The notes under the pieces were generated by a model. The model worked only from the letters and a program-made list of their open reading frames with translations, was not told the origin of the DNA and ran no database searches. This document shows positions 1 to 62,319 of a stretch of 62,319 nucleotides of DNA, piece by piece; position 1 is the stretch's first letter, and every line of letters begins with the position of its first letter. The position numbers and the translations under genes were made by a program. The DNA is taken from positions 1 to 62,319 of the forward strand of contig NZ_JAGUQP010000018.1 of the NCBI RefSeq assembly GCF_018704065.1, read 5' to 3'. The stretch is from Desulfovulcanus ferrireducens (GTDB lineage Bacteria > Desulfobacterota > Desulfovibrionia > Desulfovibrionales > Desulfonatronovibrionaceae).

Positions 1-64
1 AAAATTGTTCTTGAAAACAAAATAAACTAACCAATAAATTTTAACCATTAACTATTGACAAAAA

Positions 65-358
65 ACACAGTTGCTGAGTTAATTTGCAAGCGCATTTTCT
101 TCAATGCTAACAAAGAGTTGGACACATCTAAGGCTTGCTTGCGGGCTGTGCATAATGGGGTTAGTTAATAGAATATTATTTAACGCCTTTTCTGTTGTTA
201 TGATGGGTTTCGAAAGTTCGATGGAATAACCTCCCTATGCACAGCACTTCCGCAATTTTCGCCAAGATGTGTTACCCAACCCGTTTGTAATGCATTTCAG
301 AAAATGCACTCTTCAATTGTGCAGTAATTTTAGGATGTTAATCATGTCAGAGTTGAGT
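65..358 (+). repeat. Type-2 palindromic MITE-like element, copy H
   Basis: About 294 bp of non-coding DNA. It is nearly identical to the element at 40973-41264 and its right arm matches the inverted fragment at the window end. The two halves are imperfect inverted repeats: a left-arm GCTTGCGGGCTGTGCAT faces a right-arm ATGCACAGCACTTCCGC. The right end reads TCAGAGTTGAGT; the left terminus is degenerate, so that boundary is approximate. No gene is seen in positions 1-469. It shares its core with the type-1 elements but has different ends. Confidence 0.8.
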
Positions 359-28754: not shown

Positions 28755-28755
28755 G

Positions 28756-29067
28756 AGCTTGTAGCCAAACCTTTTTATAAACTTAATTTCCATGGTTTAT
28801 TCTAGTCTTGATTTCTTTCATGCTGGTACAAAGACTTGGACCCAACTAAACTTGCTTGCGGACAGAGCATAATGGGATACTTTGGGTAAACAAATATTAT
28901 TTTATTATCGATAGTTATGGTCAATATCGCAAAATATTTAGCCCATTCATCCCGATGCTCTGTTTTCCCGCAAGCTTCGTTAAGACTGGGTTACCCAAGC
29001 CGTTTGTAATGCATTTCAGAAACCAAGACTTTCAAGCAGCGGTTAAAATGGGGTTTGGCCACAGACT
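28756..29067 (+). mobile_element. Type-1 palindromic MITE-like element, copy A
   Basis: 312 bp between flgK and flgL. The ends AGCTTGTAGCC and GGCCACAGACT are imperfect terminal inverted repeats. CATAAG flanks both sides (28750-28755 and 29068-29073), a perfect 6-bp target duplication that includes the flgK TAA stop. The interior is a long imperfect palindrome around ATCGAT. No transposase is encoded; a 77-codon frame inside it is just the repeat. Confidence 0.9.
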
Positions 29068-29101
29068 CATAAGCGTTTGTTTGGTTTGAGGGGATAAAAC
29101 T

Positions 29102-30970
29102 ATGCGCGTAACACAGAGCAGCCTTTATAGCAGTATCATCAATCAGTTGGGCAGTTCTACTTCAAAGCTTATGGAACTGAACAACCAGATGGCCAGCCAG
29201 AAAAAAATTGATCGTCCATCAGATGATCCAGTGGGGGCAAGTAGGATCTTATATCTTCGGGATTCTTTAGGAGCTCTGGGTCAGTATCGGGAGAATGTAG
29301 ACACTGCCAAAGGTTGGCTAACTCTTGCTGACGAGACTTTGTTGCAGGTGAATAATGTTCTGACCAGATTTAAAGAATTGGCAGAACAGGCAGCAACCGG
29401 TACATTGACAGATAAAGATAGAGAGATTGTTTCTTATGAAGCCCGTCAGCTTTTTGATCAAATGATAAATTTAGCCAATACAACCTATGAAGGCAAATCT
29501 ATTTTTGCTGGACATAAAGTAGACAGCAACGCCTATGAAAAGGGCATGATGGTTTATGCTCAGGATGGGAATGTTGAGCCTTATTTGCAGGAAATTTCCG
29601 GGTATAGTGACCATTCAATCCTGGTTCAATTTGTTGGGGCCAGCAACAGTCAGGCTACCGTAGGAACTGACAATATCAATTATAGATTTTCCAGGGATGG
29701 TGGTAAAACATGGTCGAGCAATAAAACTATTACTGCTGCCGGGCCGTATGAGCTTGATCTGGATGGAGTGACAGTAAAATTAAGAGAGGGATACCAGGTT
29801 GACCTCAGCCCTGAGACGAACCTGGATACCTCAAAAGGTACCTGGTTGTATGTGACTTCTACAGCTATTTATAACGGAGATGATGAAACTCAGGCCGCGG
29901 TTAAATTTGGTAGCACTGGTTCCCCGGAGAACTTTAATGCTGTCCTTAAGGGCGCTTTTGACAAGGATGTGCGAGTTGAGATTGTTTCAGGAGATCTGTC
30001 CATACCAACAGATGTGACTTATAGATACAGTTATGATGGGGGAACGACATGGATTCCCGGAGACACAACAACCTTTACAGCTGCAAGCACGACTGTTGGG
30101 CAGACCATTATAGATTTGCCTGATGGACAGGTGGTTTTAAATGGAACAGGAGATGCAAGTGGAGTTACTTTTGATGTTTTAACTAATAGTATCGCGGTCC
30201 AACAGAGGGTGAATGGCGGAGAAATTAATGCCTATGCTCAGGGTGAGATTGACTCCGATATCATGGTCCGTATTGATTATGGTCTGGACAGTGGAGGAAA
30301 TAAAGTAGAGACTTCTTTTGTTTTGGGAGATACTACTACAGTTTCTAGCGTAGTTTACTCATACAGTACCGATGGAGGTCGCAGTTGGACTCAAGGGACA
30401 ACAGCCAATACGGCAGAGGCTGATCTGCTTATTCCTGGGGGGCATCTCTATCTTTCTGCCAAGGGCACTCAAGACCAGATCAAAGCTGGCGATCAATTTG
30501 TTGTTCACCCCAAAACAGCCAGCCTGGATGTTGAGATTTCTCCCAGCGATACAATTCAAATAAATGAAATTGGCTGGGAAATATTTGGTGGTCACAATCA
30601 ATATGGCGTTAAACCTGCTTTTGCAGATACTGAACCTGGAAAAAATTTATTTGTAACTCTTGGTAAATTTGTGGCCGCTATGGAAAACAATGATCAGGAT
30701 ACAATAGCTCAGTCTTTGGAAAATATAGAGACAGCACGACAGCATATTTCTAATCGGCTGGCCAGGGTTGGGGCCAGGGAAAATCGTTTGGATGTTGTGG
30801 ATACGGTACTGTCCGGGCTCCAAGTAAATAAGACCGAGAGGTTAAGTAAGCTGGAGGACGTGGATGTGGCTGAAGTGATGACCGACTTGAGCCAGCAGCA
30901 GTTCGTTTATGAGGCTATACTTAAGTCGTCGGCTATGATTATGCGCATGAGTTTGGTTAAATATATTTAG
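29102..30970 (+). CDS. flgL: Hook-filament junction protein FlgL (HAP3), with Asp-box modules
   Basis: 622 residues, about twice E. coli FlgL (317). The N-terminal flagellin-like domain (1-140; KIDRPSDDPVGASRILYLR) and C-terminal domain (about 510-622; LENIETARQHISNRLARVGARENRLD) are intact. Between them are three similar modules of about 112 residues. Each carries an Asp-box-like motif: SRDGGKTW (197-204), SYDGGTTW (310-317) and STDGGRSW (422-429). Each is preceded by a D-x-x-(I/V)-x-V strand. Asp boxes stabilise beta-hairpins and are usual in carbohydrate-active proteins; exposure on the filament base is inferred. The start is separated from flgK by a mobile element. Confidence 0.93.
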   Translation: MRVTQSSLYSSIINQLGSSTSKLMELNNQMASQKKIDRPSDDPVGASRILYLRDSLGALGQYRENVDTAKGWLTLADETLLQVNNVLTRFKELAEQAATGTLTDKDREIVSYEARQLFDQMINLANTTYEGKSIFAGHKVDSNAYEKGMMVYAQDGNVEPYLQEISGYSDHSILVQFVGASNSQATVGTDNINYRFSRDGGKTWSSNKTITAAGPYELDLDGVTVKLREGYQVDLSPETNLDTSKGTWLYVTSTAIYNGDDETQAAVKFGSTGSPENFNAVLKGAFDKDVRVEIVSGDLSIPTDVTYRYSYDGGTTWIPGDTTTFTAASTTVGQTIIDLPDGQVVLNGTGDASGVTFDVLTNSIAVQQRVNGGEINAYAQGEIDSDIMVRIDYGLDSGGNKVETSFVLGDTTTVSSVVYSYSTDGGRSWTQGTTANTAEADLLIPGGHLYLSAKGTQDQIKAGDQFVVHPKTASLDVEISPSDTIQINEIGWEIFGGHNQYGVKPAFADTEPGKNLFVTLGKFVAAMENNDQDTIAQSLENIETARQHISNRLARVGARENRLDVVDTVLSGLQVNKTERLSKLEDVDVAEVMTDLSQQQFVYEAILKSSAMIMRMSLVKYI

Positions 30971-35553: not shown

Positions 35554-35604
35554 AAAGGAGAGCAGGTAAAAGGCAAAAAGACTAAAAGGTAGAAAAGGTT
35601 AAAG

Positions 35605-35702
35605 AGTCTGTGGCCAAACCTTGCTTAAGAGGACAAATTTTCATAATTTTTTTCAATCCTGATTTCTAATCTGGTAGTCAAAATGGTGTTGAGCCATAGA
35701 CT
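35605..35702 (+). mobile_element. Type-1 palindromic element, miniature copy D
   Basis: 98 bp with both ends (AGTCTGTGGCC ... GAGCCATAGACT) but no core. Left and right arms are joined at GATTTCT, a 7-bp sequence present in both arms of the long copy at 36911-37228, so it is an internal-deletion derivative. The flanks TTAAAG / CTAAAT are a partial duplication. It lies between the DUF89 gene and mltA. Confidence 0.8.
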
Positions 35703-35725
35703 CTAAATAGGAGAAGACCAGGGGC

Positions 35726-36910: not shown

Positions 36911-37228
36911 AATCTGTGGCCAAACCTTACATAAATAGAGGAAAAATTTTCATAATTTTTTTCAATCCTGATTTCTTTCATGCTGGTGCAAATGTCTGGA
37001 ACCATCTATAGCTTGCTTGCGGACAGAGCATAATGGTACATTTAGGATAAATGAATATTATTTTTATTATCGATAGTTATGGTAAATAGTCCCGGATATT
37101 CAGTTTTGTCACCCCGATGCTCTGCTTATCCGCAAGCTTCGTCAAGATGGTTTGTCCAGCCCTTTGCAATGCTTTCAAGAAACCAGGATTTCTAATCTGG
37201 CAGTCAAAATGGGGTTTGGCCACAGATT
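36911..37228 (+). mobile_element. Type-1 palindromic MITE-like element, copy B
   Basis: 318 bp that start three bases after the mltA stop and fill most of the 351-bp gap to the next gene. The ends are AATCTGTGGCC and GGCCACAGATT. Opposed arms (GCTTGCGGACAGAGCAT versus ATGCTCTGCTTATCCGCAAGC) meet near TTATTATCGATAG. The flanks TAGATG / CAGAAG match only partly, so the duplication is degraded. Confidence 0.87.
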
Positions 37229-37258
37229 CAGAAGCGCGAGACGGGAATTATAAAGATT

Positions 37259-40388: not shown

Positions 40389-40437
40389 TTCACGATTCAT
40401 GAAAAAATGTGGCAAAGCAATTGTATTGTGTCTAAAG

Positions 40438-40638
40438 AGTCTGTGGTCAAATCTTACTCAAATGGATATTTTTTTATTATCGATAGTTATGGCGGCTAGT
40501 ACCAGATATTCAGCTTTGTCACCTCGATGCTCTGCTTATCCGCAAGCTTCGCCAGGATGGCTTGCTCAACCCTTTGCAATGTTTTCAAGAAACCGGGCTT
40601 TCTAATCTGGTAGTCAAAATGGGGTTTGGCCATAGATT
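40438..40638 (+). mobile_element. Type-1 palindromic element, left-arm deletion copy C
   Basis: 201 bp with both ends (AGTCTGTGGTC ... GGCCATAGATT) but lacking most of the left arm: it jumps from CTCAAATGG to TTATTATCGATAG. The right arm is complete and close to copy B. Flanks are CTAAAG / CTGAAT, a degraded duplication. It lies in the mtnA-thi4 gap, whose stretch 40639-40972 holds nothing I recognise. Confidence 0.83.
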
Positions 40639-40972
40639 CTGAATAGAAACCTGAATCCGTAGAAAGTGAGCAAATTTTGTTTATTGACAACTAGCAATCC
40701 GGAAATTTTGTCAAACAGGCGAAAAAACTCCCTCGAAGGCAGCCTGAATTAAAGTTTTAACACGATTAGTTGGATTTATGGGGCTATATTTTCAGGTTTT
40801 TAAGCAAATTTTGGAGCTAACGACTTAAAAAGATTTTAATTAAGGTTGCCTAACTCGGTCAGACAGTTTTCTCTGTTTTGCAAAAGCCTCGGGTTGTTAC
40901 AGAAGTCGTTGTTGGGTTAACCTTCACGGATCCGGGTAGAAATTAAAACCAAATTTGGATTTTGTATAAGTA

Positions 40973-41264
40973 ACTCAACTTTTTGAGTTAATTTGCGAGC
41001 GCATTTTCTTCAATGCTGACAAAGACTTGGACACATCTAAGGCTTGCTTGCGGGCTGTGCATAATGGGGTTAGTCAATGGAATATTACTTAATGCCTTTT
41101 CTTATGATGGGTTTCGAAAGTTCGGTGGAATAACCTTCCTATGCACAGCACTTCCGCAATCTTCGCCAAGATGTGTTACCCAACCCGTTTGTAATGCATT
41201 TCAGAAAATGCACTCTTCAATTGTGTAGTAATTTGAGGATGTTAATCGTGTCAGAAAGTTGAGT
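40973..41264 (+). mobile_element. Type-2 palindromic MITE-like element, copy I
   Basis: 292 bp with termini ACTCAACTTTTTGA and TCAGAAAGTTGAGT. It is flanked on both sides by AAGTA (40968-40972, 41265-41269), a perfect 5-bp target duplication. The core (GCTTGCGGGCTGTGCAT / ATGCACAGCACTTCCGC) resembles type-1 elements but the ends differ. It lies immediately upstream of the thi4 leader. Confidence 0.9.
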
Positions 41265-41303
41265 AAGTAAATAATTATATCATTATTAATTTTAGGAGGA
41301 AAT

Positions 41304-52216: not shown

Positions 52217-52336
52217 AATTTAATTGTGAGTTTTGAGTAATGAAGTTCAAGAAGATTACTATTCTTTTCCAACCTCCACAACCCAAATTTTCTTTGTCCG
52301 GGCGTTTTCTTCATAACTCAAGATTTTGACCTTAAG

Positions 52337-52433
52337 ACCCTGTGGACCAACCTCGTTTTGGCTACCAGATTAGAAATCAGGATTGAAAAAAATATGAAAA
52401 GTTGCCCTCTTAAGTAAGGTTGGGCCACAGGAT
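52337..52433 (-). mobile_element. Type-1 palindromic element, inverted miniature copy E
   Basis: 97 bp in the opposite orientation to the other copies, with the same GATTTCT arm joint as copy D. Ends are ACCCTGTGG and CCACAGGAT. It is flanked by CTTAAG (52331-52336) and CTTAAA (52434-52439), a near-perfect duplication. The short form therefore seems to have moved on its own. Copy F begins 16 bp later. Confidence 0.82.
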
Positions 52434-52449
52434 CTTAAAATGTCTTAAG

Positions 52450-52766
52450 AACTTGTAGCCAAACCTTTTTATAAACTTAATTTCCATGGTTTATTCTAGT
52501 CTTGATTTCTTTCATGCTGGTACAAAGACTTGGACCTGTTCTCAAAACTTGCTTGCGGACAGAGCATAATGGGATGTTTTAGGTAAACAAATATTCTTTT
52601 TATTATCGATAGTTATGGTCAATATCGCAAAATATTTAGCTCATTCATGCCGATGCTCTGTTTTCCCGCAAGCAAAGTTCAAGATTGGGTTACCCAAGCC
52701 GTTTGTAATGCATTTCAGAAACCAAGACTTTCAATCAGCGGTTAAAATGGGGTTTGGCCACAGACT
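52450..52766 (+). mobile_element. Type-1 palindromic MITE-like element, copy F
   Basis: 317 bp, closely similar to copy A. Ends are AACTTGTAG and CCACAGACT. It is flanked by CTTAAG (52444-52449) and CTTAAA (52767-52772). The remaining stretch of this 820-bp gap (52773-53036) is AT-rich, has no gene and probably holds the promoter of the selenoprotein gene. Confidence 0.88.
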
Positions 52767-53036
52767 CTTAAATCATAACCAGACAAAAAATAGCGTTCAG
52801 TAACACTTTTAGTAAAAAACATTCAAAAAAATACCGCTGTTTTTGCCTAAAAAAAGTGCCTAAATTTCAAAACCTCGGTTGCGATCTGTTTATAAACATG
52901 TCATTATAAATAAAAATGATTAACGGGAATATTTATTGGGTTTTTTAATCGGAGCTGTTAATCTATTATGGAAAGCCTCTGTATGCTTAGAGGAAAAACT
53001 ATTGGATATAACAGATAATTTCCTAAGGAGGAGTTT

Positions 53037-59796: not shown

Positions 59797-59827
59797 CCGA
59801 GAAAATAGAGCCGAGGGCTGACTAAAG

Positions 59828-60140
59828 AGCCTGTGGCCGAATCTTTTTATCAACTTAATTTCCAAGGTTTATTTCAGTCTTGGTTCCTTTCATGCTGGTA
59901 CAAAGACTTGGACCCATCTAAAATTTGCTTGTGGACAGAGCATAATGGGATACTTTGGGTAAAAAATATTCTTTTTACTATCGATAGTTATGGTCAATCT
60001 CGCAAAATATTTAGCACATTCATCCCGATGCTCTGTTCTTCCGCAAGCTTCATTAAGATTGGGTTACCCAAGCCATTTGTAATGCATTTCAGAAACCAAG
60101 ACTTTCAATCAGCGGCTAAAATGGGGTTTGGCCACAGGCT
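59828..60140 (+). mobile_element. Type-1 palindromic MITE-like element, copy G
   Basis: 313 bp after glnB, filling most of the gap to the convergent kinase gene. Ends are AGCCTGTGGCC and GGCCACAGGCT, here a perfect 11-bp inverted repeat. The flanks CTAAAG / TAAAAG are a partial duplication. A 110-codon open frame runs through it but is only the repeat translated. Confidence 0.88.
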
Positions 60141-60212
60141 TAAAAGTGGCTTGAAGTGTAACTAGTTTTTTGTTTCGAATTTTCTTTTAAATATTATTTA
60201 AATATTAAGCGT

Positions 60213-61880: not shown

Positions 61881-62095
61881 AAATTTTTGTGATTCGGGAT
61901 TTTGATTAGTGGAATAACAACAACCTTAATCCAAATTTACTCTGGAATAAATAAATTTATAACTGATTGAAATATAATTACATAAATGCAAAATTTATAA
62001 AAAACAAGTCACATGCTCATGGATCTTACGCTCGCGTCAAACCGGCCAGTGAAACGTGAATAAAAACGGGTGCATCCGAGGGCTGCACTTTGGTT
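61881..62095. other. Non-coding AT-rich gap upstream of the histidine kinase
   Basis: 215 bp between the kinase start and the tandem repeat hold no recognisable gene. The minus-strand kinase promoter should lie in 61881-61990. Nothing else is seen. Confidence 0.5.
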
Positions 62096-62150
62096 GAGTG
62101 GCTGAGCAGGTGAGTGGTTGAGTAGGTGAGTGGTTGAGTGGTTGAGCAGG
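62096..62150 (+). repeat. Tandem 16-bp repeat of GAGTGGTTGAGTAGGT type
   Basis: Three consecutive 16-bp units (62096-62111, 62112-62127, 62128-62143) of GAGTGGTTGAGTAGGT with few changes, then a partial fourth. Same class of tract as near 4930 and 49760. Non-coding. Confidence 0.75.
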
Positions 62151-62218
62151 CAGGATGGTCAAAGGAAAAGGTATTTTTAGTAGTTGAAGATCATTCTTTT
62201 TTGTCAATAAGTTATTAA

Positions 62219-62319
62219 ACTCAACTTCTGACACGATTAATGTCCTCAAATTACTACACAATTGAAGAGTGCATTTTCTGAAATGCATTACAAACGGGTT
62301 GGGTAACACATCATGGCGA
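62219..62319 (-). mobile_element. Type-2 palindromic element, inverted fragment J (cut by window end)
   Basis: From ACTCAACTTCTGA (62219) the sequence reads the right arm of copies H and I in reverse, through GAAGAGTGCATTTTC and ACAAACGGGTTGGGTAACAC, to the last base. The other end lies outside. A 90-codon frame running back over it and the tandem repeat is not a gene. Confidence 0.85.

Follow-up and report, generated by a model that had tools for sequence, protein, structure and literature searches.

One long hairpin core between two kinds of transposon end in miniature mobile elements of Desulfovulcanus ferrireducens

What are the long palindromic repeats that lie between flgK and flgL and at many other places in Desulfovulcanus ferrireducens, how do they move, and what keeps their arms paired? 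The window analyzed here is contig 18 (NZ_JAGUQP010000018.1, 62,319 nucleotides) from the genome of strain Ax17T, a deep-sea sulfate-reducing bacterium, whose assembly comprises 2,585,834 bases in 60 contigs, the longest of 262,489 bases. A sequence-only reading of the window had described four type-1 copies of a mobile family, and all four are present where it placed them, on the forward strand at about 28755-29068 (copy A), 36911-37229, 52449-52767 (copy E), and 59827-60141 (copy F). The type-1 inverted ends are GAGYCTGTGGCC/GGCCACAGRCTC, and the center of the palindrome in the window copies is TTATCGATAG. Copy A, a type-1a element, carries a hairpin core of about 211 nt at 28812-29022 (forward strand), located by a covariance model match of 236.6 bits and by alignments. 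Copies E and F are also type 1a. The copy at 36911 does belong to type 1, but represents a distinct subtype, 1b, with ends GAATCTG...CAGATTC and flanks AGAT/AGAA; a second 1b copy, of 203 bp with most of the left arm deleted, lies at 40437-40639 on the forward strand. A BLASTN search of the organism's own genome, suggested with that reading, gave at least 40 near full-length type-1 copies at 86-97% identity, counted from the best 40 of 264 candidates. The right-end motif of type 1 has 241 matches in the genome with at most two mismatches, against 0 for the reversed motif, and at least 175 hairpin cores are present.

Comparison of the 4-mers outside GAG...CTC in the 58 type-1 copies that have both ends identified an exact, AT-rich 4-bp target duplication in 34, while shuffling the partners of the flanks gave a mean of 3.7 exact 4-mers and a maximum of 10 in 2000. 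Longer duplications were found in one copy at 5 bp and in none at 6 bp. The real length over these copies is thus 4 bp, and a 6-bp target duplication is ruled out. The duplicated CATAAG earlier reported at copy A shrinks to ATAA, which is present on both sides and is of the longest length that recurs; for the CTTAAG/CTTAAA reported at copies E and F, TTAA holds at E, and F has the imperfect pair TAAA/AAAA. The original 6-mers were too long because one element base and one neighboring base agree by chance.

The sizes of type-1 elements cluster at 98-101, 142-181, 312-319, 469-485, and 529-612 bp. The 469-485-bp class appears to consist of full-length elements whose loop holds a further, nested repeat; in several copies this repeat is of a different, GTCATTGCGAGG...GAAGCAATCTC type. 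Two mini forms with type-1 ends and no core are found in the window on the forward strand, one of about 100 bp at 35604-35703 with a TAAA duplication and one of 99 bp at 52336-52434, directly before copy E, with a TTAA duplication. Nearly all members of the ~100-bp class contain the junction CCTGATTTCTAATC, which by its sequence fits a deletion between the GATTTCT repeats that flank the core, and several of the 142-181-bp copies would likewise fit a deletion between ACCCA repeats. The order may also have been the reverse for the 100-bp class, with the core inserted into a short ancestor. The core-less ~100-bp copies carry their own target duplications, and the hairpin may therefore be dispensable for movement.

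The left ATAA of copy A contains the flgK stop codon, immediately after which the element begins. The flgK-flgL spacer is 350 nt in D. ferrireducens, and excision of copy A with one ATAA would leave about 30 nt before flgL. An empty orthologous site had been proposed as a check, and at this one site it was found: the element is absent between flgK and flgL in 11 related genomes, ten of which have a spacer of 12-79 nt and one a spacer of 182 nt of other sequence, counting from the final flgK residue in the alignment up to flgL. These relatives belong to other genera, and none that has this locus is closer than family level; in the MAG of the same genus (G001), flgL had no match. The neighboring flgL product (29102-30967) has 622 amino acids, compared to about 500 in most relatives, and its long middle region is poorly aligned with theirs and gives weak BNR/Asp-box matches below the cut-off.

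The copies had been said to sit only between genes. This applies to 45 of the 48 copies tested, which lie outside open reading frames, though not strictly to all; random positions fall inside open reading frames in 87% (type 1) and 77% (type 2) of cases. The orientation of type 1 relative to same-direction genes is balanced (8 vs 7). Among 41 genomes searched, full-length type-1 elements were found in D. ferrireducens only, and a search of plasmids and phages gave no type-1 match. As the earlier reading stated, no transposase is carried, since the elements span 98-612 bp and no conserved frame was seen in them. Copy number, conserved ends, duplications above chance, the lack of an internal transposase, and the empty orthologous site all agree with its proposal of a non-autonomous mobile family. 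Shared terminal inverted repeats, a fixed duplication length (4 bp for type 1, 7-8 bp for type 2), short length, and the lack of genes are also features of MITEs. Together these results support the type-1 repeats as non-autonomous IS-type elements (MITEs) that form a real and recently active family.

A second kind of element shares the inner part of type 1 and differs from it at the ends, as seen at window positions 75-351 and 40977-41272. The latter is a type-2 miniature element on the forward strand with ends CTCAACTTT.../...AAAGTTGAG, a core at 41005-41207, and a 7-bp target duplication. A partial type-2 element, cut by the contig end, occupies 62220-62319 on the reverse strand. Beside it, GGTTGAGTGGNTGAGCAGG-like units form a run at 61980-62190, and a similar run adjoins a type-2 element in Desulfonauticus sp. 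38_4375 (LGER01000020.1). Type-2 ends are CTCAACTTTCTGA, and 19 of 21 copies have duplications of 6-9 bp, mostly 7-8 bp (shuffled mean 1.0). The hairpin core common to both types spans ~210 nt, with an identity of 91% within 1a, 79% between 1a and 1b, 69% between 1a and 2, and 64% between 1b and 2. BLASTN with a type-1 query reached the type-2 copy on contig C4 (108686-108893) at an E value of 3e-15. In same-direction gene pairs, type-2 copies lean to one orientation, 13 vs 4. It is unusual for one and the same long hairpin core to be flanked by two unrelated kinds of transposon end, as it is here. Since both the ends and the duplication lengths differ between the types, two transposases are likely involved.

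A search for an autonomous partner with matching ends had also been suggested. None was found for type 1; for type 2, the contig ends point to an IS-like element. One identical sequence opens 26 contig ends and leads into the type-2 core, and 28 others share an identical 120-base end closed by GAGAAAGTTGAG. Of 23 hairpin-side flanks, 19 could each be matched to a single flank of the other end over 7 bp or more, compared to a mean of 1.3 and a maximum of 5 with shuffled letters and 0-1 with bases further out. Because the flanks pair through duplications, the two sets of contig ends appear to be opposite ends of a single multicopy element, one of them carrying the hairpin. From the contig ends, we infer an IS-like element of 26-28 copies that was collapsed by the assembler and has the same ends as type 2 plus the hairpin. 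Each collapsed copy is expected to be one IS that has CTCAACTTTC ends, a transposase, and the hairpin beside one of the ends. One copy of the hairpin-bearing end forms the start of the window (1-352, forward strand), with a type-2 core at 96-303. The body of the element was not found within contigs longer than 3 kb, and no transposase was read there. About half of the ends of these contigs stop in the same IS-like element, which therefore largely sets the fragmentation of the assembly.

Three DDE_Tnp_1 genes were considered as transposase partners and set aside, as none has type-2 ends nearby or a credible pair of type-1 ends. A 40-amino-acid frame at the common contig end, followed as a lead to the type-2 transposase, was found in this genome only, among 199, and is not clearly kept in a decayed copy of the IS-like end on contig C1. 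The putative gene direction in the IS-like element is taken from this frame, whose coding nature is doubtful. A fragment on C1 at about 234,300, which adjoins the decayed end, resembles an IS3-type OrfA by eye. A candidate outward promoter was also noted by eye in the IS end, but a promoter scan did not pick it up, giving one match at chance level. Some IS-like copies are inserted inside type-1 elements (loci L106/L166 and L112/L158), which would offer a possible route for exchange of the core.

Relatives of the core are known from three genomes of two genera, including that of D. ferrireducens. A full-length match with type-2-like ends was found in a same-genus MAG (uncultured Desulfohalobiaceae, CAJXJU01), and another genus of the family (genome G004) has two matches to a diverged full-length core, also with type-2-like ends. 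No core match was obtained in the remaining genomes searched in the class, for which stricter filters were used. A 20-base core motif was absent from viral contigs and present in genome contigs of two relatives, plus one chance match in Bacillota. Type 2 is probably the older setting of the core and type 1 the later one, because the cores of relatives have type-2-like ends. Desulfonauticus sp. 38_4375, which belongs to a different genus, also has half an element, located where a stretch of ~2.2 kb (C32:20500-23545 vs LGER01000020.1) ends; this stretch is 97.9% identical to D. ferrireducens, and its end falls inside a type-2 element. The identity of this stretch would be consistent with either recent transfer or contamination.

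We next consider the fold. RNA folding of the four window copies in positional order predicted energies of -98.2, -115.8, -94.5, and -105.8 kcal/mol, with z-scores of -6.3, -7.6, -5.8, and -7.8 against dinucleotide shuffles. Of the very large hairpins in RNA or cruciforms in DNA that had been envisaged, a long palindromic fold is upheld as a prediction with covariation support. For 19 sequences from three genomes, RNAalifold predicted 37 pairs, formed in 94.4% of cells. Two-sided changes affect 14 of these 37 pairs and 53 cells, against 17.2 in shuffled alignments, which leave shared ancestry in so that one change inherited by many rows counts repeatedly, and 4-14 in slid controls, which preserve relatedness. 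With the 74-pair fold of a single copy, 25 pairs are two-sided, in 85 cells vs 36.2 shuffled and 20-41 slid. Mutations private to single copies are distributed differently. Singletons per column are 0.34 paired vs 0.40 unpaired in type 1a (p 0.55; 77 mutations) and 0.37 vs 0.34 in type 2 (p 0.81; 75 mutations), sample sizes at which modest constraint would be missed. Given the two-sided changes between lineages and the equal mutation of stems and loops in single copies, pairing appears to be conserved in lineages that spread and not in resting copies, and it is to such lineages, rather than at each inserted site, that the fold seems to matter. An Rfam search of the window gave no family besides a tRNA, which sets a known RNA family aside as an explanation of the core.

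The overall explanation that best accounts for these results, and in which we have high confidence, is that of MITEs moved in trans, with a shared core and a parent IS. Type-1 MITEs would be moved by a transposase that recognizes GAGYCTGTGGCC ends and whose staggered cut, made in AT-rich DNA between genes, spans 4 bp. The mover of type 2 would be the transposase of the IS-like element, in which the same palindrome lies next to one end; both putative transposases would act in trans. What maintains the hairpin is a more tentative matter. Structures near the ends of IS10/IS50-type elements limit read-through expression of transposase, and the Desulfovulcanus core resembles them in being an inverted-repeat structure close to an IS end, where it may have a similar role; it differs in its length of about 210 nt and in occurring with two kinds of end. 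It is possible, though we would not put it higher, that the hairpin is kept because it serves the parent IS and that the MITEs carry it as a passenger. Its most likely role would then be that of a transcript structure next to the IS end, shielding the element from read-through expression. In the flgK-flgL operon and others like it, a copy would add a long stem to the mRNA.

We give equal weight to a second possibility, that pairing is kept by homogenization of the arms, through template switching or conversion in the palindrome, with no selection on a functionless hairpin. In a palindrome, one arm can serve as template for the other, the copies decay neutrally, and the deletions between GATTTCT and ACCCA direct repeats around the hairpin fit slippage. 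However, the unpaired internal loops, which homogenization should have removed, persist in all subtypes, and several of the pairs that changed stand alone and do not form tracts. Use of the hairpin as a DNA structure in transposition, either as a cruciform or as a single-strand hairpin, would fit its retention next to the multicopy IS end and in most MITE copies. This appears unlikely, as copies of ~100 bp and 142-181 bp that lack the core or its tip also duplicated their targets, and both element sets have ordinary inverted ends and duplications.

Slightly less likely again is the view of the core as a selfish structured RNA gene, or a cis-acting RNA, that uses two kinds of IS ends to move and is under selection for its own fold. 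The strong covariation, the occurrence of one core between two sets of ends that come with duplications of different length, its presence in two genera, and the orientation bias of type 2 speak for such an RNA. Conversely, type-1 orientation is balanced, pairing is unconstrained in single copies, mini copies without the core exist, the IS end has no promoter above chance, and no Rfam family other than the tRNA was matched. Ancestral REP- or ERIC-like repeats with a host function at each site could share the intergenic placement and stable folds, but are very improbable given the flgK-flgL site without an element in 11 relatives, the exact target duplications, the neutral decay of stems, and the restriction of full-length type 1 to one genome among 41.

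MITEs moved in trans, the preferred reading, also place these elements among known systems. IS-derived prokaryotic MITEs, such as Coxiella QMITE1 and QMITE2, are usually <500 bp, with inverted ends, duplications, and AT-rich intergenic sites (PMC10969869). The elements described here resemble them in their stable fold, lack of a transposase, and internally deleted size variants, and the QMITEs in particular in size variation and in serving as IS targets (QMITE2/IS1111). By the searches made they are unrelated to QMITEs, and differ in having one covarying core between two unrelated end sets and in the parent IS-like element. They are short palindromic interspersed repeats like Correia/NEMIS, ERIC, and YPAL, which form stem-loop transcripts and are often found in co-transcribed regions (PMC2229807), but are about twice as long (312-319 bp); in place of the terminal TA of NEMIS and ERIC, type 1 has GAG...CTC ends with 4-bp duplications, which sets it outside that class. 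REP/REPIN-RAYT elements (PMC3116915) are likewise amplified palindromic non-autonomous DNA; the Desulfovulcanus elements are much longer, with target duplications and IS-type ends. In the part of the literature covered, we found neither these elements nor a single covarying core shared by two kinds of end.

Stable stem-loops are a stock description of bacterial MITEs, and whether the fold is selected is usually left open. Here a single genome offers at least 175 cores, two end sets, and an IS-like parent element, and two relatives add cores that have diverged. This material separates selection at the level of the lineage, seen as two-sided changes, from selection at inserted sites, of which none was detected, and so makes the question testable. 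We tentatively suggest that the core is a portable hairpin module of ~210 nt, fold-selected in the mobile lineage and exchanged between transposons with unrelated ends and transposases. If this is true, a portable hairpin would act as a cargo structure that selfish elements have in common, serving for instance as a transcript insulator or an RNA regulator of transposition.
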